64,000 nt of DNA, taken from assembly GCA_003058495.1 (NCBI GenBank), contig QBVC01000020.1, forward strand, positions 62,001-126,000, written 5' to 3'. Positions 21,301 to 35,131 of this stretch are shown here, one piece after another; position 1 is the stretch's first letter; each line of letters starts with the position of its first letter. Both the position numbers and the translations under genes were made by a program. The notes beneath the pieces were generated by a model. That model was not told the origin of the DNA and did no database searches. It saw nothing but the letters and a program-made list of their open reading frames with translations. This DNA is from a gamma proteobacterium symbiont of Ctena orbiculata (GTDB lineage: Bacteria > Pseudomonadota > Gammaproteobacteria > Chromatiales > Chromatiaceae).

Positions 21301-23572
21301 TTCTAACGACCGGGTCTGGACCGATCAGGAAGTACGCCTGTTCGAGGAGATCGGGCACCGCCTGTCTGACAGCCTGAATGACCTCCTGATATCGCAAAAC
21401 CTGCGTGAGAGCGAGGAGCGCTTCCGTCTGGTCTACGAAAATTCACCCATTCCCATCCGGGAAGAGGACTTTTCTGACATCGGCTCCCGCCTGGATGAGA
21501 TGAAGGAGCGCTGTGGCGATGAACTCGATAGCTATCTTCTTGAGCATCCGGAGATCGTCAAAGAGCTCGCATCACTGGTGCGTATCGTCAATGTCAACAG
21601 CGCCACCCTGGAGCTCCATGAAGCAGAAAGCAAAGAAGCGCTCTACTATGGCCTGCCGAAGACACTCACTGCGGAGTCCCATGATGCCTTTCGCCAGGAA
21701 CTTATTGCCATCGCGCGAGGAAAAACAGAGCTGTATTTCGACGGAGCGATGCAGACCCTCAACGGAAAGCGTCGTGAAGTCAGCGTCTCTTTCTCTGTCT
21801 GTCCAGGTTATGAAAAGAGCCTGAGCAAGGTCTTCGTCTCCCTGTTCGACATCACCCAACGCAAGCGGGACGAAGACAGCTTGCGACTCGCAGCCAGCGT
21901 CTTCTCCACCAGCCAGGAGGGGATACTGATCAGCGATGCCGACAACCGCATCATCGACATCAATCCGGCGTTTACCCGCCTCACCGGCTACAGCCGGGAG
22001 GAGGCGCTGGGGATGGATCCGGGGTTTCTCAGCGCCGGCAGGCAAGGGCAGCCATTCTACCAAGAGATGTGGCAATCGATAGACCGCAGGGGTGAATGGC
22101 AGGGTGAGTTATGGAATCGTCGCAAATCGGGTGAGGTCTACCCCGAACTGCTCTCCATCGTCGCCGTGAAAGACGAGCAGGGCAGGCTGCAGCACTATGT
22201 GGGCGCCTTCAGCGATATCAGCATGATCAAACAGCATGAGGCCGATCTCGACCGCATCGCCCACTACGACATGCTGACCTCGGTGCCCAATCGACGCCTG
22301 CTCGGGGACCGGCTGGAGCAGGCTATCGCGCATACCCGTCGCCACGGCGGAAATCTGGCCGTCTGCTACCTCGACCTCGACGGCTTCAAGCCGATCAACG
22401 ACCAATTCGGACACGAAGGCGGCGACCAGATGCTTGTCGAGATCGCCCAACGCCTGGAATCGATGTCCCGGGGCGAGGACACGGTCGCCCGCCTGGGTGG
22501 CGACGAATTCGTGCTGCTGTGGAACGACATCGAAAGTGAAGCCGATTGCGCGCGGGCCCTGGAACGCATCCTCGACAAGGTATCCGAGCCGATGCTGCTG
22601 GAGGGCGAGTCGGTATCGGTCTCGGCCAGCATCGGGGTAACCCTCTATCCGGACGACAACGTGGATGCGGACAGCCTGCTGCGTCATGCAGACCACGCCA
22701 TGTATTCGGCGAAGCAGCTCGGCAAGAACCGCTACCAGATATTCGATGCGCGCCTGGAGAGGCAGATTTCAGCCCAGTCCGAACTGCTGGCGATGGTGGA
22801 GCGCGGCCTTGAACAGGGGCAGATGGAGCTCTACTACCAACCAAAGGTCGATTGCGCCACCGGCGAGGTGGTGGGCCTCGAGGCCCTGCTGCGCTGGAAT
22901 GACCCGGTCCTCGGCCTGATTCTTCCCAATGAGTTTCTTTCGTTGATCGAAAACGACAGCCTGGCGCTGCGGGTGGGGCGCTGGGTGATGGATGAGGCGG
23001 TGCAGCAGGCCAAACGCTGGGATGATCAGGGGATCAAACTTCCGATCAGTATCAATATCTTTCCGCGCCATCTCAAATCCCGCAGCTTCGCCGATGACCT
23101 GCGCAATGCCATCGCGCTGCACTGGCCGGAGATGCCGGGCAGCCGGCTGTTGCTGGAGATAATCGAGACCTCCGACCTGGAGGAGCTGGAACCCATCCAA
23201 GGGGTGATCGACGAGTGCCTGATGATGGGGATCGGCTTCTCCCTCGACGATTTCGGCACCGGTTACTCCTCGCTGGTCTATCTTCGCCGCTTGAGCATCG
23301 AGGAGCTGAAGATCGACCAATCCTTTGTCCGCGATATGCTCGAGGATCCGGACGACGAGGCGATCGTTATCGGCGTGATCAGCCTGAGCAAGGCGTTCGG
23401 CCTGCGGGTGGTCGCCGAGGGGGTGGAGAGCTCCCAGCAGGCGCGGTACCTGGCTGACCTGGGTTGCTCCACGGTGCAGGGATACGGCCTTGGACGTCCC
23501 ATGCCGGTACTTGCCTTTCAGAAATGGTATGCCGACCTGTTGGCCAACGAGTTTGAATTATGCCAAAGCTAG
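18338..23572 (+). CDS. Giant Cache-HAMP-PAS/GAF-GGDEF-EAL c-di-GMP signalling protein
   Basis: 1744 residues. A membrane helix (10-33), a periplasmic Cache-like domain (about 40-165), a second helix (about 170-195) and HAMP (about 195-250) lead into two PAS domains, then a GAF-PAS-like module present twice in tandem (about 510-843 and 844-1177), one more PAS (about 1185-1300), GGDEF and EAL. GGDEF is intact at 1387-1391 with an RGED inhibitory site at 1378-1381. EAL is also intact (EALLRW at 1515, IETSDLEE, DDFGTGYSS, KIDQSF, VAEGVE). Both synthesis and breakdown of c-di-GMP are therefore possible. The start could be a GTG five codons later. The gene lies between a periplasmic binding protein and an overlapping hemerythrin. 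Confidence 0.93.
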   Translation: MELSAVKLSSKLHLFSLSMLVVMALSVLAAGMVIINELARDQHYQILRAELGKIRATVVDTLNRSGMLAAAREARRLQSGLAAGPVGFESAHIYIIEAPDRVIFHPDYQMGDRIERNDLDSLFAQSDGAIEYTVKDTTHFAAFTTIKPIDWMVFISINEDEIYIKEAEYLRHIVLISIGIFILTALVVSLFVGRFADRLQITLDGIRQIDKGDLDTRIPVSVNDEVGQLQAGINAMSASIQARTLEQQEAEQALRESDTKFRNLVQKIQAAIVVHGPDTQILSANSMAQDFLGLSEKHLLGRAANDPAWHFLREDGSAMPQEEYPVNRVLSSRSVLQNLVVGVERPDRTEPRWALVSAIPLTDKTDGITQVVVSFTDITQRRKSEQQLAASEQLFRTLVENTHDHIARYDLNLHRLYINPALAEEFKQPLDKVLGKTSKVASPLLDPEHYMDNLRSAIETGKEILDEIAYRTPQDEIRWANVRFAPEFDLDGKVKSVLAISSDTTEQKRAELERQAYTHFLESLDRINRALQAEGEIEEVMNRALQEVLDIFGCDRAYLLQPYDPHTPSFTVPIECTTPEFPGAQARGIEIPMDDFISWLMRTLLESDRPFQVGAGTEYPISDYMREEFSIRSFLAMSLRPRVGKAWQFGIHQCSHDRTWSDQEVRLFEEIGHRLSDSLNDLLTTRNLRQSEERFRLVFENSPVSIQEEDYSAVKAHLEPLRPQFGDDLAGYLDEHPEVVEECAALVRVIEINHASLILHEAESKEAVLQGLPQIFLTETLKDFRDVLLALMSGETNIRKQSVLQTLHGHRYDIDSFISVCPGYEESLGKVLVSLIDITELKQAEQERQQYLHFLESLDRVNRVLQEEGSIEQIMDKALKEVRTIFDCDRAYLLYPCDPQATSLTVPIESTTEDFPGAHERDLEIPVDDYISWLLRSLLDADHPVKLGAGTEHPMSEYLQKEHSIRSILAMALRPRVDRPWQFGIHQCSNDRVWTDQEVRLFEEIGHRLSDSLNDLLISQNLRESEERFRLVYENSPIPIREEDFSDIGSRLDEMKERCGDELDSYLLEHPEIVKELASLVRIVNVNSATLELHEAESKEALYYGLPKTLTAESHDAFRQELIAIARGKTELYFDGAMQTLNGKRREVSVSFSVCPGYEKSLSKVFVSLFDITQRKRDEDSLRLAASVFSTSQEGILISDADNRIIDINPAFTRLTGYSREEALGMDPGFLSAGRQGQPFYQEMWQSIDRRGEWQGELWNRRKSGEVYPELLSIVAVKDEQGRLQHYVGAFSDISMIKQHEADLDRIAHYDMLTSVPNRRLLGDRLEQAIAHTRRHGGNLAVCYLDLDGFKPINDQFGHEGGDQMLVEIAQRLESMSRGEDTVARLGGDEFVLLWNDIESEADCARALERILDKVSEPMLLEGESVSVSASIGVTLYPDDNVDADSLLRHADHAMYSAKQLGKNRYQIFDARLERQISAQSELLAMVERGLEQGQMELYYQPKVDCATGEVVGLEALLRWNDPVLGLILPNEFLSLIENDSLALRVGRWVMDEAVQQAKRWDDQGIKLPISINIFPRHLKSRSFADDLRNAIALHWPEMPGSRLLLEIIETSDLEELEPIQGVIDECLMMGIGFSLDDFGTGYSSLVYLRRLSIEELKIDQSFVRDMLEDPDDEAIVIGVISLSKAFGLRVVAEGVESSQQARYLADLGCSTVQGYGLGRPMPVLAFQKWYADLLANEFELCQS
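19865..21868 (+). repeat. In-gene tandem duplication of a GAF-PAS module (two 1002-bp units)
   Basis: Unit one (about 19865-20866) and unit two (about 20867-21868) code for closely similar 334-residue stretches in exact register: HFLESLDRINR versus HFLESLDRVNR, CDRAYLL in both, LFEEIGHRLSDSLNDLL in both, and CPGYEESLGKV versus CPGYEKSLSKV. The boundaries are approximate because flanking PAS linkers are themselves alike. Confidence 0.92.
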
Positions 23573-24021
23573 AGGACTTCCAGGTCATCGAATGGGATGC
23601 TTCCATGGCGACCGGCATCGCTGACATCGACAAACAGCATCAATATCTTGTCGACACCCTGCAGGAGGCGAATCGACGCCTGTTGGCGGATGATGATGCC
23701 GGCTACCTGAAGAAGGTGGTCAAGGACCTGCTCGGTTATGCCATCATGCACTTCGAGACCGAAGAGTCGTTGATGCAGGTCTACGACTATGCGGCAGCCC
23801 ACCCCGAAGACGCCCAGGCCCACATTGCCCAACACCGGGATTTTTCCAGCCAGATAGTGGCCATCAACGAACAGCTACGCGAAGGGCATACTATCTCGGG
23901 GGTCGAGGTGTTGGCGTTCCTCAACAACTGGCTGCGCGAGCATGTCCTCGGGATCGATCAACTGCTTGGCCGTTTTTTGTTTCACAGGATGAAACAAGCC
24001 GGAAACAAATCCCGCTGCTGA
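23560..24021 (+). CDS. Bacteriohemerythrin
   Basis: 153 residues, a four-helix di-iron oxygen-binding protein. All usual ligands are present: H27, H64-x3-E68, H88-x3-H92 and H128-x4-D133. It has no fused signalling domain. Its ATG at 23560 overlaps the end of the GGDEF-EAL gene by 13 bases, which implies translational coupling. It may deliver or buffer oxygen (or NO) as an input to that sensor; the link is inferred from position. Confidence 0.94.
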   Translation: MPKLEDFQVIEWDASMATGIADIDKQHQYLVDTLQEANRRLLADDDAGYLKKVVKDLLGYAIMHFETEESLMQVYDYAAAHPEDAQAHIAQHRDFSSQIVAINEQLREGHTISGVEVLAFLNNWLREHVLGIDQLLGRFLFHRMKQAGNKSRC

Positions 24022-24160
24022 ACTCTCTCTTTATCCTGATCTGACGGCTGAACCTGCACCGGGAAACAGCTTCCATCCCCGTACCGTCCCGTTCGCGCGA
24101 CAGACCGGACCGGTGCCCGATTCGCTTGCCGTATCCAATTTGCGATTGATTCATGATTGT

Positions 24161-24319
24161 TCAACTAAAACGGATGTAGTGCCGATTGCTGTGTTTGGCG
24201 AGAGAGCGCCAGAAGGCCTGCTGTTCCTCTTTGCTGTTTTTCTTCTCTCTTCGCGGCGCTGTACTGGTATTGATCAGTTGTTGACAGATGCTCTGCCAAT
24301 AGGTGAGTTGAATGATCAT
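24161..24319 (-). CDS. Small basic protein of 52 residues, unknown
   Basis: An ATG at 24319 is preceded by a strong GGGAGGAG ribosome site at 7-base distance and opens a 52-codon frame ending TGA at 24161. The product begins MIIQLTYWQSICQQL, has a charged middle (RREKKNSKEEQQ) and ends RHYIRFS. It would form two short helices; no signal or membrane segment is seen. I do not recognise a family. The good ribosome site and clean helix-like composition support a real gene. Confidence 0.5.
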   Translation of the reverse strand: MIIQLTYWQSICQQLINTSTAPRREKKNSKEEQQAFWRSLAKHSNRHYIRFS

Positions 24320-24493
24320 CTTTGCACTCCTCCCGTTACCTTGTTTCTATGGTTTGGTTTGTATCTATTCTTGCTGTTTTGTGACAAAAACAAAGTTAAC
24401 TATTACCAGGCAGGCTGTGACTTTTTAACGCATCGCCGGACCCGGCCTGCTCGGCGCCGGCCTTAAACCCGGGGCAATGGACTAGTCGGTAAA

Positions 24494-25690
24494 TCAGTCG
24501 AAGATCTCACTGCCGGTAGGCTCGAAATGGTCTGCCCGGTTCATCGCCTGGCGGAATTTCGAAAGTTCCAGGTACATGCGCTGACGCGCGCGGCTCTGAT
24601 TGCCCAGCGGACGATGCTCCGGCAGGCAGTGCCAGGGATTCATCTTCAGGCGCCTTGCGAAGGCGAACTGTTTCTCGGAATCGAACTGCTGGCGCGGGAT
24701 ATGCACCCTCGCCGCCGGTATAAAGGGCGACAGCTTTTCCGGCCAGCGCACCGCCGCGTTTTCGATGGGCATGCGATGGGGATCGGTCTGCAGCTGTATC
24801 ATCAGGTCGAACGCCACATCCTTCTTGCCCAGGGTCTTGATCATGTTCTCCCGGAGATAGTTGAACGGCGGGGTGCCGAACGGTAGACCGGGGATCTCTC
24901 TCTCCACCTCGCTCCTGGGGACGAAGGAGTACATCATCGCCTGCCCCTCTCCCAGCAGGTAGGGCACACAGCTCCAGTAGCGCTGACCGAGAGGGTTGTA
25001 CTGGGTCTCGTTCCACAGGCTCTGCATGAAGAAGTCGAGCAGGTGGCTGTCCCTGGGATTGAGAAAGTAGTAGATGGGCATATCCACCAGGCTCCAGTAC
25101 TGCAGTTTGGCGTTTTCCCGGGTGTTGGGGGTGACGAAGGTCGGGGTGCAGATGGCGATGAAGTCCTGGGTGTATCTCTCCTCCTCCATCAGCTTCTCCC
25201 CGGGGACATCCATCAGCTTCACCGCCATGCTGACGAAGCCGACATCATCGATATCGGCGGGCACGTCCGGCCCGGGCCCCGAATAGCGCACATAGGCGGG
25301 ATAGCTGCGCGGCGTGGCGAAGACCCCCTTGCGGCAGTGATCCGGCAGGTCGTCACGGATGGTAACCGTGGCCCGCAGGATACCGTGGGTCTTGGTGTTG
25401 CCGCCCCGTTCATATTTGCCGGGTTTGAAGTGGCCGCGCATCTGATCCATCATCAGATCGATGATCGCGTCCAGGCTCTGCTCCTCGTCCCTGTCGATTC
25501 GTTCCTCGGCCAGCTGCAGGCCTTCGTCCCTGCGCCCAATATTGATGAAGAACTGAATCACCGCGGCACTGGGTTCGCGCAACAGCCGGTTCCACTGGGG
25601 CCTGAACCAGGGCTCCAGGCGACGCTCCAGACGCATCAGCCGTACCAGGATATCGTGGATAGACTTGAGAATTCGGGTCTTGAGATTCAT
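24494..25690 (-). CDS. Catalase-like haem protein (cytoplasmic, AOS/y4iL-type)
   Basis: 398 residues, shorter than classical catalases (about 480 or more). The core keeps the catalase pattern: distal His H102 in KTHGILRA, the substrate-channel side in SYPAYVRYSG, and the proximal haem tyrosine Y373 in an R-x3-Y motif (R369) after NPWHCLPEHRPLG. Small catalase-like proteins of this group include allene oxide synthases and hydroperoxide-using enzymes, so the substrate may be an organic or lipid hydroperoxide rather than H2O2. An N-terminal helix-rich region of about 90 residues precedes the core and could attach to a membrane. Its ATG overlaps the DyP stop by 4 bases. It ends the haem-protein operon. 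Confidence 0.82.
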   Translation of the reverse strand: MNLKTRILKSIHDILVRLMRLERRLEPWFRPQWNRLLREPSAAVIQFFINIGRRDEGLQLAEERIDRDEEQSLDAIIDLMMDQMRGHFKPGKYERGGNTKTHGILRATVTIRDDLPDHCRKGVFATPRSYPAYVRYSGPGPDVPADIDDVGFVSMAVKLMDVPGEKLMEEERYTQDFIAICTPTFVTPNTRENAKLQYWSLVDMPIYYFLNPRDSHLLDFFMQSLWNETQYNPLGQRYWSCVPYLLGEGQAMMYSFVPRSEVEREIPGLPFGTPPFNYLRENMIKTLGKKDVAFDLMIQLQTDPHRMPIENAAVRWPEKLSPFIPAARVHIPRQQFDSEKQFAFARRLKMNPWHCLPEHRPLGNQSRARQRMYLELSKFRQAMNRADHFEPTGSEIFD

Positions 25691-27213
25691 CGCCCGGCCC
25701 CTCCATCCGCAGCGGAGAGGGATGCGATATACTTCAGCGCCCGCATTCCCGGCATGAAGAAGTAACCCCCGCCCCGCACCCTGACAAACCGGGGCAGACC
25801 GCAGACCTTGCGTGCCGGCCCGTCCGTTTGGCCAAGCCTGAAGCAGTCGCTGTTCTCGCCATTGATCAGGGGCTCGCGTCCACCGAGGAGGGGATCGCTC
25901 TCCTGGCGCATGCCGTTAAATCTGCTGTTCATCGACCAGGTGTCCTGGACGAACTCGAACTGGCGCGAGATGTTCGCCACCAGGCAGATGAAGTGCAGCC
26001 CCCGCTCCGCCTGCGGCGGATCCGTTTCCAGGGCCGCTTCCGGGGTCAACGGCGGCCCGTAGGGACGGCCGCGGCGCAGCAGCCGGTGGAAGCGGGTCGA
26101 GGCGACCAGGTCTTCGTCCGCACGCCGCTGCCCGAAACCGAAGATCTTGATCAATCTCGAGAAAAAGCCCGTTACCCCGGGCGGGAAATCACCGCTGCGG
26201 GGATTTGCGCGGCGGATATGGGCGCCCAGGGGGCAGCGATGGCCGCCGGGGTCCGCGTCGTAGGTGAATTGGTTGCCCTGTTGCTCCGGCGCCACCCCCG
26301 GGATCGGATCCCCGCCGGTCTTCATCAACGGCGTACCGTCGCGTTCTCTTCCCACCATGCTGGCGGCAAGACCCTCCCGCCGCTCCGCATCACCGCCGCT
26401 CTGTTGATCGAGAAATCGCCAGAAACCGGAGACATCCTGAGCGAGCTGCCGTAGCACCAGGTAACAGCCGTTGCGGGCGAAATCCTTCAGCCCCGGCAGG
26501 TCCTCCGCGTCCGCCAGTATCGCTGCCCGCTCGTCCCGGCGCGGATCGATCAGGGGCCGGTCGGTGTAGAGACCGTACTCATTGGCATAGCCGAGCACCG
26601 TCTCTCCCACCGCCAGCCGGTTGGAGTAGCGGTCACGATGGTGCAGATCGGTGCTCTGCCGCTGTTGCCAATCGATCTTCGGCTGGCTGATGCCATCGGC
26701 AAAACCGAAATGCTCGATACCGCCCAGGTCCCGGGTCGGCAGGATCTCGATCAGCTCGAAGGCGGCATCAAACCTGTCATCCTCGACCGAGGCCCGCTGG
26801 GTTTGCAGCCCCCCCGGGAGCGCATAGTGCAGCAGCAGGATGTGGGGCGTCGCGGCCGGATCGCCCCCCCACCGCCAATGCTCCGGCGCGCTGCCGCCGC
26901 TGTCGCCCAGGCGCCGCGATCGGCTCTCGTCCCCTGTCATGCCGACGATGAACTCATCGGAAAAGCCCTCGATGACCGCCTCATCGATACCGAGCACGCG
27001 CAGGCCCTCCGCGCTGAAGGCAATCTGCATGGCGGCTTGCGGCAATGGGGTCCTGCTGCTGGCATCGGTCACCGGGGCCTTCAGCAGCCACTCCCTGGCT
27101 GCCTCGGGATCGACCACCTTCAGCAGCATGAAACAGGCCTCGCTCAACCTGCCGTGGCCGAAGCGCAACAGACCCTGCAGATCCTCGAACTCAAATCCAT
27201 CCCTTTGGCTCAT
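25687..27213 (-). CDS. DyP-type haem peroxidase
   Basis: 508 residues. The family signature GFADGISQP is at 170-178 with catalytic Asp D173. The proximal haem ligand is H332 in CPLGAHIRRANPR, with the following Arg residues as expected near haem. There is no signal peptide, so it is probably cytoplasmic. It resembles the longer DyP group with extra loops between the two ferredoxin-like halves. DyP enzymes oxidise dyes, phenolics and other bulky substrates with peroxide. The gene lies 13 bases after the 434-residue protein. Confidence 0.92.
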   Translation of the reverse strand: MSQRDGFEFEDLQGLLRFGHGRLSEACFMLLKVVDPEAAREWLLKAPVTDASSRTPLPQAAMQIAFSAEGLRVLGIDEAVIEGFSDEFIVGMTGDESRSRRLGDSGGSAPEHWRWGGDPAATPHILLLHYALPGGLQTQRASVEDDRFDAAFELIEILPTRDLGGIEHFGFADGISQPKIDWQQRQSTDLHHRDRYSNRLAVGETVLGYANEYGLYTDRPLIDPRRDERAAILADAEDLPGLKDFARNGCYLVLRQLAQDVSGFWRFLDQQSGGDAERREGLAASMVGRERDGTPLMKTGGDPIPGVAPEQQGNQFTYDADPGGHRCPLGAHIRRANPRSGDFPPGVTGFFSRLIKIFGFGQRRADEDLVASTRFHRLLRRGRPYGPPLTPEAALETDPPQAERGLHFICLVANISRQFEFVQDTWSMNSRFNGMRQESDPLLGGREPLINGENSDCFRLGQTDGPARKVCGLPRFVRVRGGGYFFMPGMRALKYIASLSAADGGAGR

Positions 27214-27226
27214 CGTCTTGGCCTCT

Positions 27227-28531
27227 CTAGATTAAGCCCAGCCATTCACGGATCGCCCGGTCGCTCGACTGTCGCCGCTCCACCCCCTGGCGGATGCGGC
27301 TGTTGCGCGCCAGATCGAATGCGGTCAGCCCCGGATAGGCCTTGTACCAGACCTCGGAAGGGAGCTGATGGCGGCGCAGGGTATATTTGAACTGCTGCTC
27401 CCGCGCCGCACCCTGCTTGATCAGCCAGCTGGTCCTGGGATACCCCACCCCGTTGCTGAAGACCAGATTCAGGCCCCAGGCAACCTTGTTGATGAAGTCA
27501 TCCATGTAACCCTCCAGGCTGCCGTCGTAGTTGCTGGCGAAGTAGAGCCTGCGATCGTTGTCGAGCAACACCCAGCGGGCGAAATGGATGGTCTTCACCC
27601 GGGTGAGATAGCCGTGGTTGTAGACATGCCTGGAGGCGTAATCGAGGGTCAGCAGAAGAAACTTCAACAGCGAGAGACGGAACAGGCCCGGCTTGACGTC
27701 CCCCAGCACGTTGAAATGGTTGGTGACATCCAGGTCCTCCAGCACCGACAGCCTGGCGATATGCGCGCGCCCGGGACGGATCACGATCTCCGGATCCGAC
27801 CGTTCCAGCATGCGCAGCCGCAGGATCAGAAAAGGCGCTGAAAGCAACAGCAGCGGCGCCAACAGCAGCAGGATCGACGGCATCCCCAACTTGTGCAGCA
27901 GATTGCCCAGCCACCATAACTTGGGGGTCGGTTCCGGCGGGCTCAGCTGCAGCCGCCCCGCATCCCTTTCCAGCTCCACATGGGTAAGCAGCTTCTGCCG
28001 CAGCGCCCGGGCATTGCCCCTCCCCACCTCTTCAATGGCACGCGGCAGATAGGCCGCGAGGCTGCGCTGCAGGGCCTCCTCCTCCCTGACCTGCTGCACG
28101 GTGCGCCCGATCCAGTTGATGTAGTTGGCCTTTGGCGTAATGTTGCGCCCGCTCATCCAGGTCAACAGGTCGTCCCGATCCGGGTCGAAGCCAACACAGT
28201 GGGAGAAGATCTGTTGCAGACCGTCAGCGGCGCGGCGGGCAAGTTGGTCGAGAAAATAGCGGCTCTTCCCATCACAATCCCCGAGGAAGACCAGGGAGGG
28301 GCGCCAGGGATAGGGCTCTCTCCCATGGTGGCGCATCTCCTCCGCGGTCTCGGCCTCGAGAATCACGAAGCGGGCCACATGCAGACGCTCGAACTGACCG
28401 AATGGGAGCAGCGGATTCTCCGGATCGGCGATACCTTCGATCCGGTTCATGCCGGCGAGCAGATCGCGCAGGGCATCGATTTCGCCCTCGCGGATCTCGG
28501 CAAGAATCATGAATGTGGACTGGGGTGTCAC
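27227..28531 (-). CDS. Conserved-looking membrane-associated protein of unknown function
   Basis: 434 residues; I do not recognise a named family. The N-terminal 150 residues look like a ferredoxin-like alpha-beta domain (STFMILAEIREGEIDALRDLL, then HVARFVILEA). A single strong hydrophobic segment lies near 220-240 (ILLLLAPLLLLSAPFLIL). The C-terminal 180 residues again look like an alpha-beta barrel unit, with HFARWVLLDNDRRLYFASNYDG, GYMDDFINKVAWGLNLVFSNG and a WYKAYPGLTAFD ending. The two halves around a membrane anchor recall the dimeric fold used by DyP and related enzymes, but no haem ligand is evident. It lies between DyP and a small unknown gene in the operon. Confidence 0.75.
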   Translation of the reverse strand: MTPQSTFMILAEIREGEIDALRDLLAGMNRIEGIADPENPLLPFGQFERLHVARFVILEAETAEEMRHHGREPYPWRPSLVFLGDCDGKSRYFLDQLARRAADGLQQIFSHCVGFDPDRDDLLTWMSGRNITPKANYINWIGRTVQQVREEEALQRSLAAYLPRAIEEVGRGNARALRQKLLTHVELERDAGRLQLSPPEPTPKLWWLGNLLHKLGMPSILLLLAPLLLLSAPFLILRLRMLERSDPEIVIRPGRAHIARLSVLEDLDVTNHFNVLGDVKPGLFRLSLLKFLLLTLDYASRHVYNHGYLTRVKTIHFARWVLLDNDRRLYFASNYDGSLEGYMDDFINKVAWGLNLVFSNGVGYPRTSWLIKQGAAREQQFKYTLRRHQLPSEVWYKAYPGLTAFDLARNSRIRQGVERRQSSDRAIREWLGLI

Positions 28532-28564
28532 GGCACGCTTCCCTGGTGATCCTTTTCGCTCCGG

Positions 28565-29020
28565 CTAGCCATCCTGCTTCTTGGTCAGGGCAAAATCGAG
28601 AATGCGTGTCTTGCCCCACCAGACCTTGCCCAGGTAGACCCCGGGCTCGACCTCGCGGATCTCATCCCGAATCACCTTGGCGAAGAAGGAGGTCGTTGAG
28701 TAGTCGATAACGATGGTCTCCCTGCCATCCAGCCAGCTCTTGTCGCGATAGACCTTGGCGACGATGAAGGTCAGGCTGAAGGGGGTGATCTTGTTCACCA
28801 GCACCCCGGCCCGGCCATCCGCGGCGAAGATATCGAACACCTTGCCCTGCCAGGCGAAGAGACGGGCAAAGGCGGCGACCAGCTTGGAGAGGAGCGAGCC
28901 CGCGAGGATCGCGGTGCCGCGGGTATCGCCCCTCGGCAATTCGCCGGCCTCGGCGTTGCGATAGATCTGATCCAACTCCTCCCTGGTCTTGTCCAACCAG
29001 CGTTCCACGGTGATCTGCAT
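28565..29020 (-). CDS. Small protein of unknown function in haem-peroxidase operon
   Basis: 151 residues, no signal peptide. The sequence has a helical N-terminus (VERWLDKTREELDQIY), then a beta-rich body with GKVFD, FIVAKVYRDKSWLDGRE, IDYSTTSFFAKVIRDEIREV and GVYLGKVWWGK. The pattern of alternating strands around a GVYLG turn suggests a small beta-barrel that might bind a lipid or other hydrophobic ligand; this is speculation. It starts 5 bases after the periplasmic catalase-like gene. Confidence 0.75.
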   Translation of the reverse strand: MQITVERWLDKTREELDQIYRNAEAGELPRGDTRGTAILAGSLLSKLVAAFARLFAWQGKVFDIFAADGRAGVLVNKITPFSLTFIVAKVYRDKSWLDGRETIVIDYSTTSFFAKVIRDEIREVEPGVYLGKVWWGKTRILDFALTKKQDG

Positions 29021-29025
29021 GGCGG

Positions 29026-30057
29026 CTACTCCCTTGTTCGCAGTTTGGCGGCTTGTGCATAGACCTGGCGACGCACCTCGTTCATCCTGCCCAGGGGGCG
29101 ATGCGCGGACAGGGTCTGCCAGGGATTGAAACGACTCGCCTCGCAGGCGGCCAATGCCTGCGGGGTGTCGAACGCCTGCTCCTCGATGGTGATGGTGGCA
29201 ACCCTGCGGAAAGGGGAGAGGGCCTCATCCCAGACCACCGAGGCATCCTCGATGGGCATGGTCTCTGCATCGAGCTGCCGCTGCACGCCAAACTCGAAGC
29301 ATGCCGGCCCCTGCTGCAGATGGTGCTTCAGTGCCGAGCGGAGCTGATCAGGCCCCGCATCCACCACCTGCGCAGTGGTGTAGTCGGAACAGGGAGTGAC
29401 GGAATATTTGACCGCCTGATCGCTGCCCAGGCTGAAGGGGACGGTGCTCCAATAGCGGATATCCAGCGGACTCAGATGGCGCTTGCGCGCCTTGAAGAGA
29501 ATCCACAGCGATTTCAGATGGGGATCGAAGGGATTGAGAAAGAAGCGCAGCTTCCTGTCCTCCTGTCTGGCGCGGATGAATTTCAGAAACTCCTCCGGGG
29601 TTGCCACGAACAGGGCGGGATAGCTGTTGAGGACGAAATCCTGTCTGCCGCCCTCTCCCCAGAGCGCACCCCCATCAATCCCGGAAACACGGATCGAGAG
29701 ACCGCGGATATCCTTTTCTGAATCGTCCATCTCGGTGGCGTTGGCGAATCTGAGCCGCGCCGGATAGCTGCCGGGCCTGGCAAAGAGTCCCTGCTGCAAC
29801 TCCCTGGGAATATCCTCGTGAACACGAAACCGGGCATCCACGCAGGCGACGCTCTTCGGCTGATTGAACCTGGGGATGGCGCCGTTCTCCTCAGCAGCCA
29901 GGGTGATCGCCTCGATGCGTTGGCTCATCTCCGCCACCAGTTGCTCGATGGTCGCCTGCTGCTCCTCGGCTGAACAGACTCCCGTCAGCAGCATGAGTGC
30001 CGCTAAAACACCGATGCTGCAATGGCACTGCTCCATTTCGTCTTGTTTGTTTTGCAT
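29026..30057 (-). CDS. Periplasmic catalase-like protein lacking the distal His
   Basis: 343 residues from ATG 30057, chosen for the GGAGG ribosome site 8 bases away. A signal peptide (to about residue 25, cleavage near VCSA) exports it. The catalase-like core has FARPGSYPARLRFAN and, near the C-terminus, NPWQTLSAHRPLGRMNEVRRQVY with the likely haem Tyr in an R-x3-Y motif. At the place where the cytoplasmic paralogue has KTHGILRA this protein reads SVACVDA, so the distal His is replaced, most simply by Val. True catalase activity is therefore doubtful; haem binding with another chemistry, or no catalysis, is possible. It follows the cyclooxygenase-like gene by 86 bases. Confidence 0.8.
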   Translation of the reverse strand: MQNKQDEMEQCHCSIGVLAALMLLTGVCSAEEQQATIEQLVAEMSQRIEAITLAAEENGAIPRFNQPKSVACVDARFRVHEDIPRELQQGLFARPGSYPARLRFANATEMDDSEKDIRGLSIRVSGIDGGALWGEGGRQDFVLNSYPALFVATPEEFLKFIRARQEDRKLRFFLNPFDPHLKSLWILFKARKRHLSPLDIRYWSTVPFSLGSDQAVKYSVTPCSDYTTAQVVDAGPDQLRSALKHHLQQGPACFEFGVQRQLDAETMPIEDASVVWDEALSPFRRVATITIEEQAFDTPQALAACEASRFNPWQTLSAHRPLGRMNEVRRQVYAQAAKLRTRE

Positions 30058-30143
30058 TGCTCCGTCCTCCAAGGTACTGCCAATAGGAGAAGATCCAGCT
30101 AGCTGTAGTCTTCTCTGGTTAGGGTTATTGTCGGCCAGACCTA

Positions 30144-33059
30144 TCAGAAGGCAGGGTCGGCCTCAGCACCGGGACGCGGCTCCCACTCCAGGCTGTAGTA
30201 TTCGCCCCGTTCCCGCGCCCAGGGATCGAAGACGTTCCTCACCGGCATCAACTCATCCCTGAGTGCCGGCGCATTGCGCATCAACAGCCGCTTCAACGGC
30301 GACACCGCCATCTCATGGCCGTTGACCATGCCCGCCTCGAGGCAGGCCCGGCTGCCATCCGCCTGGGTGGTCAGGGCATAGGGGCACTCGCTCAGCGGCC
30401 CGTTGTGCAGCACCCAGTCGTAGCCCAGGCGGGAGTAGAACTCGGGACGAAAACTTGAGGTGAAGAAGCGGTCGCTGAAGAGACGCCGGGAGGCGTTGAT
30501 GATAAAGATATGAAACTGGGTCTCGGAGATGGCGAAACCGTGCGGACGGGTGTACTCCGCCAGCCAGCCCACCACATTGTCCACATCCTCGATATTGTCG
30601 ACCACCGTGCCGTCGGGGTGCCCGAGGCAGTCGTTGATGAACTCACCCGCTGCATTGCGTTGCACTGTGGAGATAATCTTGCCGGCATCGCATTTATGGG
30701 TGCCGTAGATCTCGCGCATCCGCGACACCGTCTGCTCCTGGTGTTTGCGCCAGGGATCATCCTTGTCGAGGTGCTGATCGACGAAGTCATCGAAACTGCT
30801 GAGGTGCTTCAAGCCGATCTGGCGGCGGAACTCGTTGAACCGGGGCACGCCACGCTCCCGGTCACGAATCAGATCCAACGCCACCACGTCGATGCTGCGC
30901 GTCTCGGAATCGAGATGGGGCATCGGCAGGTTCTGCAGAAACATCGGTTGGTTGCGAAGATGCAGCACCCCCAGCCGCTGACGCCCCATGCTCAGCGCCC
31001 AGTTGTCGAGGCCATGCCGGTGCATCAGCGAGGTCGCGCCCTCCCGAACGGTTTCCAACACCGGCACCTTCGCCTCGATCAGGTTCGGCTGCTCCTTACG
31101 GCGCATCTCGATCAGGTCGGGCACCAGCGGGTGGAGGCGATAGACCGAGGTGAACTCCTCGGGGAAGTTGAAGGGTGAACCGAAATGGTTGATGCCGCCA
31201 TTCACGTCATCGGGATCGCTCAGGTCCCAGCCGTCGCGCTTCCACCAGAGCATCCCCTCGGGCTTGTTGTTGCCGAGACCGAAGATCCCGGCACCGGAGG
31301 CGAGCACGGAGTAGAGCGAGTTGGCCCGTTTCGGATCGGATGAATCTGAAAACCAGCCCGCCACCTTTTCCGAAACCCGGCCCAACAGATTCTCCTCCTT
31401 GTCGAGGATGCGCCGCAGCACCTTGGAGACCCGATCCTCTCCCTGGTTGAAGAGGCCGAACCAGTTGGAGTTCATGGCCAGAAACAGGGGCTCGTCATAG
31501 AGCAGCTGGGTGGTCCACTCGATGGTGTGGATCTTCGCGATCTCCGCCGCCAACACCAGTCGCGCCACCTGGTAGAGCCGTTCGTCATCCACCTCGCTAT
31601 AGGTGATGATCCTCTCCGGCTGATCCGGATCGCGCAGCCCGGAATCCCCAGCGGGGGTGAGCGACTGCTGATCACGGAAGCGATCGACGAAGTAGTTGTG
31701 CTCACGGGTGAAGAGGTTGTGATAGAAGCTCAGGCCGATATTCCAGTTGTCGGCAAAAGCGGCGGCCTCCTGGCCCTGCCACTGGGGCTGCACCGGGCAG
31801 TCTTTCGAATAGCCGTCGCAATTCTGCAGCAGCGGCAGGTAGCCCTCCCGCAACCGCAGTTTGGCCGGATCATCGGGATCGCGCTGCACCCGCTTCAGCG
31901 ACAGCTCGTCATGACCATAGATCTGCGACGCGTCCCACCAGGCAGAGACAAGGTTGTTGGTTGTCTTCGGCGCGCGCTTCAGATACGCCTTGCCGTCATG
32001 CTGAAAGCTTTCCGGCTCCCCGGTTTGCGCAAACAGGGAGGGCTCGCGACGATCCCCTTCGCGGCAGCCAAGGGCCCTTGCCGCTTCGGAGTCGCAGCCA
32101 ACGGGTTCGAGTCCGGGCGAGTTGCGCCCCTCGCTGGTATGGGAAAACCAGTCATGGGTCATGAACTGAATCCAGAACGCCGCCAGCACGTTGAAGAAGG
32201 GGGCCGGGAGATAGTCGCAGGCAACATCGGGTGAATGGCTGCCATCGCCCATACCTTTGTTACAACCGTTGCCCTCGCTCTGCTCGCGACTGAAGAGGCG
32301 TCTGCTGATCAACTGGGGATCGGGTTTTAACAGACCGATGCGATCACCATGACGGTTTTTCGTAAGCTCGTTGAGGCCGAGACGGGGGAAGGTGGTCTCA
32401 AACTGCATGTTGCGGGTAAACGGCATCCCCGTGGAACCCATCAGCGGATTGCGGATGTCGTTGCAGATCCCGGTCAGGGTCCGATGGGTGATCAGGTCGC
32501 CTTGACACAACTGCTCGCCAGCGCCCCCCACAGCCCGATAGTTTTCGTGCTCGGTTGGCAGACGCATGGCGTCCCAGCGCTTCAGCGCCGGTCCCGGCCA
32601 GCCATCCCTTCCCTGGACATACTCCTGGTAGGTATACTGATCGAAGAGGTTGAACTTGATCAGCTCAATGCGCTGGTATTCGAGATCCAATAGCGCCCCG
32701 TCCACTCCCCGGCCATTGGGATAGAGATGCTCGCCGATTTTGGTAATCGCCTCGCCCCCCATGTGCCTGCTCTCGCTAGCGCCGGTAGCATAATAGTTCT
32801 GCCAATCCACCCAGGGGGTGTCGCGGTATTGCGCCGCCTTATCGCCGCCCCGGCAGCGCGCGGTATCTTCCCTCACCTTGCCCAGGAAGCGTTTGGAACG
32901 ATCCTCCGGCACCTCGAGCAGACCACGGCTGGCACTTTCGATACAGGCCTTCAAATCACTCTCTTCACTGGCACACAGCGGCGCGCAGAAGAGCGAGCCA
33001 AGGACAAGATTGGTAACAATGATGTTCCGCGAGCAGAACAGATGCATGTTCGTTTTCAT
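30144..33059 (-). CDS. Exported animal-type haem peroxidase, cyclooxygenase/fatty-acid-dioxygenase-like
   Basis: 971 residues with a signal peptide (about 1-30, ending near CAS). The distal His is H302 in FMTHDWFSH. A REHNYFVDRF segment matches the LREHN helix of cyclooxygenases. The stretch EFTSVYRLHPLVPDLIE carries Y640 and H643, in the positions of the cyclooxygenase radical Tyr and proximal haem His. Keeping that Tyr argues for fatty-acid dioxygenation rather than simple peroxidase activity. The protein is longer than COX (about 600), with an N-terminal extension of about 200 residues and an insert near 320-420. It has an AAGGTG ribosome site and appears to be the first gene of a six-gene operon. 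Confidence 0.88.
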   Translation of the reverse strand: MKTNMHLFCSRNIIVTNLVLGSLFCAPLCASEESDLKACIESASRGLLEVPEDRSKRFLGKVREDTARCRGGDKAAQYRDTPWVDWQNYYATGASESRHMGGEAITKIGEHLYPNGRGVDGALLDLEYQRIELIKFNLFDQYTYQEYVQGRDGWPGPALKRWDAMRLPTEHENYRAVGGAGEQLCQGDLITHRTLTGICNDIRNPLMGSTGMPFTRNMQFETTFPRLGLNELTKNRHGDRIGLLKPDPQLISRRLFSREQSEGNGCNKGMGDGSHSPDVACDYLPAPFFNVLAAFWIQFMTHDWFSHTSEGRNSPGLEPVGCDSEAARALGCREGDRREPSLFAQTGEPESFQHDGKAYLKRAPKTTNNLVSAWWDASQIYGHDELSLKRVQRDPDDPAKLRLREGYLPLLQNCDGYSKDCPVQPQWQGQEAAAFADNWNIGLSFYHNLFTREHNYFVDRFRDQQSLTPAGDSGLRDPDQPERIITYSEVDDERLYQVARLVLAAEIAKIHTIEWTTQLLYDEPLFLAMNSNWFGLFNQGEDRVSKVLRRILDKEENLLGRVSEKVAGWFSDSSDPKRANSLYSVLASGAGIFGLGNNKPEGMLWWKRDGWDLSDPDDVNGGINHFGSPFNFPEEFTSVYRLHPLVPDLIEMRRKEQPNLIEAKVPVLETVREGATSLMHRHGLDNWALSMGRQRLGVLHLRNQPMFLQNLPMPHLDSETRSIDVVALDLIRDRERGVPRFNEFRRQIGLKHLSSFDDFVDQHLDKDDPWRKHQEQTVSRMREIYGTHKCDAGKIISTVQRNAAGEFINDCLGHPDGTVVDNIEDVDNVVGWLAEYTRPHGFAISETQFHIFIINASRRLFSDRFFTSSFRPEFYSRLGYDWVLHNGPLSECPYALTTQADGSRACLEAGMVNGHEMAVSPLKRLLMRNAPALRDELMPVRNVFDPWARERGEYYSLEWEPRPGAEADPAF

Positions 33060-33423
33060 AACACCTTCCCGTTGTCTGTTCCAACAGTGGTGGCCTGATC
33101 AATAGCCGCACACCAATAGTGAGTTTCCGGTTTTCCCTAAACTACAACGGAGGGATAAATTTCAACTGCGTATCAACTGCTCAAATTGAATTATCTTGGA
33201 GTAGCAACAAACACAGAGAGACAGATTGTGCGTATGCCTTACTCCATCAACTCTCTTGCAACTCTGTTTTGAATATCCGTTATCAACCCTTTCAGGTATC
33301 AGGTTGTATGACGGAGTGCCTCAATATCCTTGCGCTGAGTAATTCTGTTGTCTTCAAGGATTGCTGTTTATAGTTCGCTGAATGTCGTTTAGACCAAAGC
33401 CTAACAGAGCAGGAAAGGAACGA

Positions 33424-33440
33424 GTGTGAATATTTCACAC
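33424..33440. promoter_or_regulatory. 17-bp palindrome, possible operator
   Basis: Perfect 7-bp arms GTGTGAA and TTCACAC around TAT. It resembles a CRP/FNR-class half-site pair (TGTGA...TCACA), but the spacing is one base short. It lies about 365 bases upstream of the cyclooxygenase-like start. Confidence 0.35.
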
Positions 33441-33521
33441 CTGGGATGTTACAAAATACACAAGGGAAGATTCGGTTCACTTGCTTCCCTTTGCCTATTC
33501 ACTACTGCATGGGATAGACCC

Positions 33522-33542
33522 AAAAAAGCCGAACCGAGCGGC
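33522..33542 (-). terminator. Possible intrinsic terminator after yjbQ
   Basis: On the minus strand a short GCCG...CGGC stem with a 7-base loop is followed directly by six T, about 55 bases past the yjbQ-like stop. The stem is only 4 bp, so strength is uncertain. Confidence 0.4.
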
Positions 33543-33596
33543 GCTGCCATACTCCGATGGCACTGCTTGCAAGGATGGGTGATCAGAGGAAACCGG

Positions 33597-34046
33597 TTAT
33601 TTTATACCGATGACCTGTACGGCTGCCCTACGCTCTCTGGGGCCATCCGTTTCCAGCAGCAATATGGACTGATAGCGCCCAAGTACCGGCTCTCCATCAA
33701 CAACCGCCAACACCTCGCCATTGCCGAGCAGCATTGCAATCAGATGCGAATGGGCGTTTTCCGGTTCATCGGGTGGAATATCGGCTCGAAGGTGGAGATC
33801 GTTATGCTTGTACGCCTCACCCGGCGGGGCGATCGACAGAAAGAATTCACGCATATCATCAAAGAGCCGCGCTTCGTTTTCGTTCACCGCGAGTGCGCAG
33901 GTTGTGTGCAACGAGGTAATCGTAACCATGCCCTGCGATACACCCGACTCTCTGACCAGGGTCTTGATATGCCCTGTAATATCTATAACATCGAATGACT
34001 TTCCTGTGGTAATTCCCACTTCTTTGTAGCAACTGATCATCTGCAT
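33597..34046 (-). CDS. YjbQ family protein (UPF0047)
   Basis: 149 residues, the usual family length. Diagnostic parts are SGVSQGMVTITSLHTTCALAVNENE, HNDLHLRADIPPDEPENAHSHLIAMLLG with its conserved His residues, and GRYQSILLLETDGPRERR near the end. Members form beta-barrel trimers; some have weak thiamine-phosphate synthase activity but the main role is not settled. Cytoplasmic, no signal. It is about 95 bases downstream of the M28 peptidase gene on the same strand. Confidence 0.93.
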   Translation of the reverse strand: MQMISCYKEVGITTGKSFDVIDITGHIKTLVRESGVSQGMVTITSLHTTCALAVNENEARLFDDMREFFLSIAPPGEAYKHNDLHLRADIPPDEPENAHSHLIAMLLGNGEVLAVVDGEPVLGRYQSILLLETDGPRERRAAVQVIGIK

Positions 34047-34141
34047 ACTCTTGTTTTGACCTTATTGGTTAGGAGCGAGCCGTAACCGAAACATTGGCCG
34101 GAGCAGGGATTTGCATTCAGCGCATCGAGTCGACGGCACTG

Positions 34142-35131
34142 TCATCTTCCGTTACTGAGTTTGACCACATAGTCGAATACACCGTATACGACCTGCGCCA
34201 TCCTTTCATAGTCCAGACGCTCCGCCCTGTCCTCGTCCGTGTGGTATGCGCGATTCCTGTAAAACGCCGTGTCGGTGATCATGACAGCTGGATACCCATA
34301 ACGCCAAAAGTTCATATGATCTGAAAAATCGACACCTGGAATAAATGACGGTGCATTGATTGAATATACAGGAAGGTCGCTTGCACCGGTCATCGATGCT
34401 TTCATTCGCTGCGCCTGGGTAGACATCAGTTGATCGACGACAGCAATAAAGTCGCCGCTTGAAGGGTAGTAAAGTCTTAATAACTGCATGGGATAGTCTT
34501 GGGTTCCCTTTTCCTCGGTGAAGTAGCCAATCATTTCCAGTGCAATCATCAGCCTGACATCCACACCCGACTCTGCAAGGGACTTTGCATAGACCGCACT
34601 ACCCATTTTATCGGATCGGAAAAAAGGCGGTTCTTCCAAGGTAAATGCAACCAGCACGACTTTTGTCTGTAATTCTACCTTACCCAGCAGCCTGCCGATT
34701 TCGAGCAACCCCGCGACACCGCTGGCGTTATCGTCAGCGCCTGGATATTCACCCGCCACATCATAGTGAGCGCCCACAACGATGATCTCATTAGCTTCCG
34801 GCCCGAACTCCGCAATGATGTTTCTGTACTCAGCGCCGTCAACAGCGAAGACCTGTTCGGCAACGCGGCCGCCAGAAGACGCCAACGATTCCGATATGTA
34901 GTCTGCGACCCTGTTCAGGTTGTCGATATGCTGGTAATTTCTCGGCGCCATCTCATTGGACAGCAGCGACGTATCTCTTCTCAATACAGCAGGATCGATT
35001 GAGTGGGCGGGATGCTTTGCGATCTCCTTGGAACTAAAACCGGGTCTGGCCAGAATCAACCAAAGCAGGCCAATGACGACGGCGAGCGCCGCTGCAATTC
35101 TGCTTATCGATGCCAATAATTTAACTATCAT
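34142..35131 (-). CDS. M28-family zinc aminopeptidase, membrane-anchored
   Basis: 329 residues with an N-terminal hydrophobic segment (about 8-28) that is a signal anchor or uncleaved signal, placing the catalytic domain in the periplasm. Metal-binding residues of the family are present: H122 and D133 in GAHYDVAGEYPGADDNASG, the Glu pair E166/E167 in FTLEEPPF, an Asp in the DVRLMIALEMIG area, and a late His in the AYHTDED motif. These enzymes remove N-terminal residues from peptides using two zinc ions. Confidence 0.9.
   Translation of the reverse strand: MIVKLLASISRIAAALAVVIGLLWLILARPGFSSKEIAKHPAHSIDPAVLRRDTSLLSNEMAPRNYQHIDNLNRVADYISESLASSGGRVAEQVFAVDGAEYRNIIAEFGPEANEIIVVGAHYDVAGEYPGADDNASGVAGLLEIGRLLGKVELQTKVVLVAFTLEEPPFFRSDKMGSAVYAKSLAESGVDVRLMIALEMIGYFTEEKGTQDYPMQLLRLYYPSSGDFIAVVDQLMSTQAQRMKASMTGASDLPVYSINAPSFIPGVDFSDHMNFWRYGYPAVMITDTAFYRNRAYHTDEDRAERLDYERMAQVVYGVFDYVVKLSNGR

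Follow-up and report, generated by a model that had tools for sequence, protein, structure and literature searches.

A conserved six-gene operon joins a predicted alpha-dioxygenase-type haem peroxidase to two catalase-fold proteins and a DyP peroxidase in a gammaproteobacterial symbiont of Ctena orbiculata

Using family and structure-profile searches, predicted structures and a comparison of gene neighbourhoods among genomes, our work here describes an operon of six genes in a gamma proteobacterium symbiont of Ctena orbiculata, within a 64,000-nucleotide stretch of contig QBVC01000020.1 (positions 62,001 to 126,000; hereafter the window), whose first gene encodes a haem peroxidase that, on the sequence features tested, belongs to the alpha-dioxygenase (alpha-DOX) family. 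We consider it probable that this operon serves alpha-DOX-type oxygenation of fatty acids with dedicated handling of the hydroperoxides. What we observe directly is the order of the genes, the fold families of their products, the active-site residues and conservation. The family itself is not new in Proteobacteria, since alpha-DOX sequences scattered among them have already been reported (PMC8720084), and our results point to the conserved six-gene operon as what is new. Literature searches, which covered the broad topics in part and subscription papers sparsely, showed no publication on the operon itself among the papers listed. What is known of alpha-oxidation by alpha-DOX comes mainly from plants and from a few cyanobacterial enzymes studied as biocatalysts (PMC8720084, PMC9305512), and the operon now names likely partner enzymes of a bacterial alpha-DOX.

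Gene 1 (30144..33059, minus strand, 971 residues) matches An_peroxidase PF03098 in Pfam (E 6e-66), and both sequence and profile searches place plant alpha-dioxygenases as its nearest solved structures. The best profile match in the PDB is rice-type alpha-DOX 4kvj (E 9.3e-68), while the next structure outside that family, lactoperoxidase, is far weaker at E 5.4e-7, and no PGHS is found among the five PDB sequences that match (sequence search E up to 0.01, profile search E up to 0.001). The first-pass annotation, made from the letters of the DNA, had called this product cyclooxygenase (COX)-like and had noted a radical Tyr, Y640, and a proximal His, H643. Both residues are indeed shared with COX/PGHS, and Y640 (31140-31142) and H643 (31131-31133) align with Y379 and H382 of rice alpha-DOX, the former having been placed on the catalytic Tyr by the printed PDB alignment, in which 4kvl has Phe in that column; the label, however, was too loose, as the closest solved relatives are alpha-dioxygenases.

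The residues that would hold the substrate tell the same story. We compared the haem, carboxylate and channel residues named for rice alpha-DOX in PMC8720084, where H311 and R559 bind the carboxylate and T316 places the alpha carbon, and so followed the fatty-acid channel of gene 1 through its residues. Counting along the printed alignment, these three correspond to H511 (31527-31529), R859 (30483-30485) and T516 (31512-31514), and the distal His is H302 (32154-32156; all codons on the minus strand). Across 82 gene 1 sequences, comprising the window and 81 other loci, H302, H511, W515, T516, F636, Y640, H643, F852, A856 and R859 are identical throughout, with F849 kept in 80 and I853 in 79. 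Two short alpha-DOX-like plasmid proteins, taken as controls, retain 11 of the 11 positions compared. Nitrosomonas europaea and N. communis each have a COX-like protein that retains only four equivalents, those of the radical Tyr, the proximal His, F375 and A556, and is without those of the distal His, H311, W315, T316, F549, F552 and R559. Because this pattern is kept in gene 1 and lost in the COX-like controls, gene 1 is of alpha-DOX and not COX type. A cyclooxygenase identity was rejected on the PDB searches and this Nitrosomonas control. Gene 1 thus shares with the plant and cyanobacterial alpha-DOX (4kvj; CalDOX of Calothrix, LepDOX of Leptolyngbya) the haem ligands, the radical Tyr, the H311/R559 pair, T316 and most of the aligned channel residues, but exceeds the 621-residue chain of 4kvj by about 350 residues, has a signal-like N-terminus and sits in a conserved operon.

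A different chemistry would follow if gene 1 acted like a linoleate 10S-dioxygenase (10S-DOX), oxygenating an unsaturated fatty acid mid-chain for a catalase-fold partner to cleave the hydroperoxide. Such a pairing of a COX-family dioxygenase and a catalase-related protein is described for Nostoc (PMC13049297), and a COX/10S-DOX-like gene of Nitrosomonas shares its neighbourhood with genes 1 and 3-6. Yet the distal helix of gene 1 reads FMTHDWF against the FtdsF reported for the Nostoc enzyme (PMC13049297; printed motifs compared by eye), and the alpha-DOX carboxylate residues are present, so that we regard this alternative as unlikely. In that Nostoc punctiforme system, the linoleate 10S-DOX, a COX-superfamily dioxygenase, works with a catalase-fold partner, the catalase-related 10S-hydroperoxide lyase, but gene 1 is of alpha-DOX type and the operon adds two catalase-fold proteins, a DyP peroxidase and two further proteins; a cyanobacterial fusion of catalase and haem dioxygenase is also mentioned (PMC11719350). 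Returning to the alpha-DOX assignment, we expect gene 1 to oxygenate C2 of ordinary, also saturated, fatty acids, and not to act in COX or 10S-DOX fashion on unsaturated chains, because its closest solved relatives are alpha-dioxygenases, and its predicted product is a 2-hydroperoxy fatty acid. Capric, myristic and palmitic acid, all saturated, are among the substrates of alpha-DOX (PMC8720084), so the objection usually raised, that polyunsaturated substrates are missing from most bacteria, falls away.

The neighbours of gene 1 are conserved as well, as became clear when the same gene order, whose search had been proposed at first pass, was sought in other genomes. Genomes were scanned with a five-sequence gene 1 alignment, and the best 80 of 130 confirmed places were used; the 81 loci besides the window are L010, L011 and L015-L094 without L025. 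One contig with a cut gene 1 makes up L007, L012 and L025, with the remainder on L009/L014, and that genome stands outside the 81; L008, L013 and L058 are a single contig, counted once as L058. Each locus was searched by tblastn (E 1e-8) with 15 probes, covering the other operon genes, COX-like, lipoxygenase, GMC, cytochrome, two RoxA-like, cytochrome P450 and tyrosinase genes and one unknown. All six genes occur together in 23 of the 81 loci, and in the same order in 20. In 18 loci, all six genes are full-length and follow a single order on one strand, and the distances between matched segments range from -7 to 206 bases; L020 and L035 keep this order although one gene is split or cut, and in L049, L051 and L061 (Halomonas, Litchfieldella) genes 4-6 are divergent from genes 1-3. 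At least one probe gene other than gene 1 lies nearby in 48 of the 81. Because the six genes co-occur in 23 of these loci, their arrangement exceeds chance.

Carriers include Chromatiales, Sedimenticola, Methylomonas, Pseudomaricurvus and Parahaliea, and, within Desulfobacterota, Desulfopila and metagenome-assembled genomes (MAGs) of Desulfocapsa and Desulfurivibrio. In the gene 1 tree (a quick method, with SH-like approximate likelihood-ratio support, SH-aLRT, only), the window falls within a starred set of 17 in which Gammaproteobacteria and Desulfobacterota are intermingled, with L016, L017 and L027 placed among the Gammaproteobacteria, which suggests gene transfer. The Desulfobacterota lineages of these loci are usually regarded as anaerobic, and an O2-using operon is nevertheless found in L016 (a Desulfobacterales MAG), L017 (Desulfopila), L027 (Desulfocapsa) and L044 (Desulfurivibrio). 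In L014, gene 4 lacks its end, gene 5 is mostly missing and the gene 3 match is in two pieces, through either natural decay or assembly.

Two catalase-like proteins had been announced at first pass, and both do have a catalase-type fold, with coral allene oxide synthase (cAOS) as their best solved match, but neither carries the full catalase distal pair. Gene 2 (29026..30057, minus strand, 343 residues), which has a hydrophobic N-terminal segment at residues 11-29, matches Catalase PF00199 at 23.4 bits, slightly below the Pfam cut-off of 25, and its best PDB profile match is cAOS 1u5u (E 6.2e-10). Gene 6 (24494..25690, minus strand, 398 residues) has no Pfam match at E up to 1, and a PDB profile search up to E 1 finds only cAOS chains (1u5u, E 0.0024; 3dy5); it shares about 31% identity with the gene 2 orthologue of L010 and 27% with the window's own gene 2. 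In gene 2, Asn 144, which aligns with N137 of cAOS in the PDB profile alignment, Arg 329 and the proximal Tyr 333 are invariant in all 36 of the 36 listed sequences, and the distal-His position, set by eye with gene 6's Thr-His pair as the guide and not by structure alignment, is Leu, Val or Ile in 35 and His in one. Gene 6, counted in 28 of 31 listed sequences (L014, L017 and L068 left out), shows the complementary pattern: Thr 101 is invariant, the next residue (H102 in the window) is His in 24 and Tyr in four, Arg 369 and the proximal Tyr 373 are invariant, and the distal-Asn position is Ile, Val or Thr in all 28.

Thus the set of a monofunctional catalase (distal His and Asn, proximal Tyr) is incomplete in both proteins, and of the set of cAOS and its coral hydroperoxide lyase counterpart (cHPL; T66, H67, N137 and the proximal Tyr) each holds part only. 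The coral enzyme, which has T66, H67 and N137 together (PMC5617202), has the proximal Tyr in common with both; gene 6 keeps the Thr-His pair (24 of 28) and gene 2 the Asn, and neither is fused to a lipoxygenase. Genes 2 and 6 therefore look as though they keep different parts of the catalase distal site, and neither resembles a working catalase; the distal-residue counts make a true catalase role unlikely for both. It is conceivable, though we hold this only tentatively, that catalase chemistry is split into halves between them, gene 2 lacking His and gene 6 lacking Asn, with each specialised for its own hydroperoxide step. These counts bear directly on the general peroxide defence that had been put forward as the alternative, in which the peroxidases and catalases would remove H2O2 or lipid peroxides made elsewhere. 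Four of the six genes encode proteins of haem peroxidase or catalase type, and the catalytic residues of the DyP peroxidase are intact, as such a role would have it. What nonetheless weakens the alternative is that the full distal pair is kept by neither catalase-fold protein; moreover, the fatty-acid carboxylate site of gene 1 is present in all 82 sequences, and the neighbours in relatives include lipoxygenase, P450 and RoxA-like genes, from a probe set that held no other stress genes. We accordingly rate general defence as improbable, and the operon still offers two catalase-fold proteins apparently unfit as catalases.

Genes 3, 4 and 5 lie between these two. The two proteins left unassigned at first pass, the products of genes 3 and 4, have no family in Pfam or NCBIfam; their matches were considered in full (43 of 43 listed for gene 3, 31 of 31 for gene 4). 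Gene 3 (28565..29020, minus strand, 151 residues) is predicted to form a beta barrel like those of lipocalins and fatty-acid-binding proteins (FABP), and a tblastn search with it hit one plasmid record, from Nocardia (E 8e-13, 36% identity). Gene 4 (27227..28531, minus strand, 434 residues) is predicted to consist of two dimeric alpha/beta-barrel (ABM-like) domains flanking a hydrophobic helix at about residues 219-237. Gene 5 (25687..27213, minus strand, 508 residues) matches the Dyp family TIGR01413 in NCBIfam at E 4.5e-24, scoring 85.3 bits where the curated cut-off is 100.5, and its Pfam DyP matches are also sub-threshold. D173 (in GFxDG), R289 and H332, which we take to be the Asp of the GxxDG motif, the distal Arg and the proximal His of DyP peroxidases, are present in 13 of 13 sequences, namely the window and 12 of the 30 listed matches. 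By its sequence, then, gene 5 encodes a DyP peroxidase, as had been proposed, and its catalytic residues are intact. The natural substrates of DyP peroxidases are a long-standing open question, which gives interest to the finding that the gene 4 domain accompanies them: its C-terminal domain elsewhere adjoins a DyP gene or shares one chain with DyP, sometimes also with P450. Chains of 1408-1620 residues that fuse P450, the gene 4 C-terminal domain and DyP occur at L095 and L096 (plasmids of Novosphingobium and Sulfitobacter) and at L124 and L131 (genomes of the window's phylum). The gene 4 model has its nearest folds in a polyketide decarboxylase and an ABM/SchA-like polyketide protein, and these and the single chains might also speak for secondary-metabolite tailoring, with an aromatic or polyketide-like product being oxidised and gene 4 serving as an ABM/SchA-type enzyme. 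That reading is very unlikely in our estimate: Pfam and NCBIfam searches of the six genes find no scaffold synthase, gene 1 has a fatty-acid site, and a shared fold proves no function.

For fatty-acid oxygenation, which we prefer, we propose the following mechanism, in which the substrate, the C2 position and the reactions of genes 2-6 are predictions and the compartments are read from hydrophobic segments only. Gene 1 has a hydrophobic signal-like segment at residues 13-31, and some of its relatives carry a lipobox-like Cys at the N-terminus (by eye). The exported enzyme would use its haem, held between the distal H302 and the proximal H643, to generate a radical on Y640; a free fatty acid would be held at its carboxylate by R859 and H511, with C2 placed by T516, and abstraction of hydrogen at C2 followed by addition of O2 would give the 2-hydroperoxy fatty acid. 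Gene 2, a haem-Tyr protein with a signal-like N-terminus, most likely converts this hydroperoxide rather than destroying H2O2, either by reduction to the 2-hydroxy acid or by cleavage to a shorter aldehyde, and gene 3 may carry the fatty acid or the product. The products would then be oxidised or detoxified by a second module, facing the cytosol or the membrane and made up of genes 4-6 (ABM-like barrel, DyP and catalase-fold protein). By analogy, the operon would work as plant alpha-oxidation joined to a coral- or Nostoc-style hydroperoxide partner.

Other fatty-acid oxygenases accompany gene 1 in some relatives. In Nitrosomonas europaea (L093), a COX/10S-DOX-like gene, a lipoxygenase and gene 1 stand in a row; genes for GMC oxidoreductase and cytochrome c, encoded on the other strand, come next, and genes 3-6 after them; gene 2 was not detected at this locus. 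The COX-like protein there matches PGHS-2 (E 4e-70), has Asp in place of the distal His and carries FTDSF in its distal helix, as given for the Nostoc 10S-DOX (by eye). Three kinds of fatty-acid dioxygenase therefore lie in one gene run at L093:6590-12841 (N. europaea ATCC 25978), and likewise at L080 (an N. communis MAG). Lipoxygenase genes are found near gene 1 in 4 of the 81 loci (L058, L089 and L093 by Pfam; L080 by 84% identity). Lipoxygenases are rare in the window's phylum, where 3 of 398 genomes have one. At that rate, and taking a span of 20 kb in a genome of 4.5 Mb, simple arithmetic gives about 0.003 expected cases in 81 loci, on a background for this phylum only although the loci also include other phyla. 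The window's own genome yielded no lipoxygenase in the same search that was positive in three other genomes.

P450 genes lie near gene 1 in 4 of the 81 loci, and pairs of RoxA-like dihaem proteins in its gene run in nine (L029, L032, L034, L036, L037, L038, L042, L048 and L078), both counted without a background rate. The P450 adjoining gene 1 in L046 has a putative P450 and CYP3A forms as its best PDB matches, and the PDB search gave no sign of a CYP74-type hydroperoxide P450. The RoxA-like pairs are frequently arranged as genes 1-2-3-RoxA-RoxA, with the L036 pair on the other strand; these proteins match PF21419, have two CxxCH motifs and include RoxA 4b2n among their PDB matches. The P. aeruginosa 10S-DOX/7,10-diol synthase pair (FadCcp, PA2077/PA2078) and RoxA may be comparable through PF21419 and the two CxxCH motifs, but such pairs occur only in the relatives' loci and not in the window operon. 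For the window's own genome there are two weak off-operon RoxA-like matches; E. coli also matched below the cut-off, so these were not used. Together with the alpha-DOX site seen in 82 of 82 sequences, the lipoxygenase, P450 and RoxA-like neighbours lend good support to the bacterial pathway for making or handling fatty-acid hydroperoxides first suggested from the sequence. We further hypothesize, as part of the same tentative proposal as the two catalase halves, that genes 3-6 are a portable fatty-acid-hydroperoxide module that has been joined to different oxygenases: alpha-DOX in the window, alpha-DOX with a 10S-DOX-like enzyme and a lipoxygenase in Nitrosomonas, and P450 elsewhere, including in single chains. 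If true, this would amount to a bacterial alpha-oxidation or oxylipin pathway common to Pseudomonadota, Desulfobacterota and Gemmatimonadota.

Several observations weigh against our reading of the operon. Gene 1 has 971 residues against 621-652 in the plant chains, with about 140 extra residues before the shared core in addition to inserts and a longer C-terminus (read from the PDB alignment). Its channel also departs from that of rice: the position of M325 is Leu in 76 of the 82 sequences, that of A331 is Ala in 44 and Ser in 36, and L53 and R57 cannot be aligned. True catalases follow close behind cAOS for gene 2 in the PDB profile search, from E 7.3e-8, and the confidence of the gene 3 model is modest. 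Genes 1 and 2 look exported and genes 5 and 6, in which we see no export signal-like segment, do not, so a common product pool needs transport. Among the 81 loci, 33 show none of the 15 probe genes, a figure that is an upper bound given that only 39 have at least 5 kb on both sides; genes 2-6 are thus not needed everywhere. Only one of 21 other genomes of the window's genus has gene 1. Finally, the three lipoxygenases of the 398 genomes have no other probe gene nearby, which disfavours a general lipoxygenase link.

The run of six open reading frames occupies 24494-33059 of the minus strand with gaps of 86, 5, 33 and 13 bases from gene 1 to gene 5 and a 4-base overlap of genes 5 and 6, exactly as first annotated. 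The start of gene 2 was taken as the ATG at 30057, with GGAGG upstream; the mechanical reading frame begins with TTG at 30072. The operon genes have a G+C content of 0.60-0.66, against 0.565 in each flank. A scan of 23000-35000 found no RNA family that reached its gathering threshold, and promoter and terminator signals at the operon were no more than in shuffled sequence; the transcription unit therefore rests on spacing and conservation. Downstream of the operon on the other strand (18338-24021) lie genes for a 1744-residue multidomain protein, with PAS and GGDEF/EAL domains assigned by eye, and then for a haemerythrin-domain protein. A haemerythrin protein 67% identical to that of the window sits about 3 kb from the operon in locus L010.

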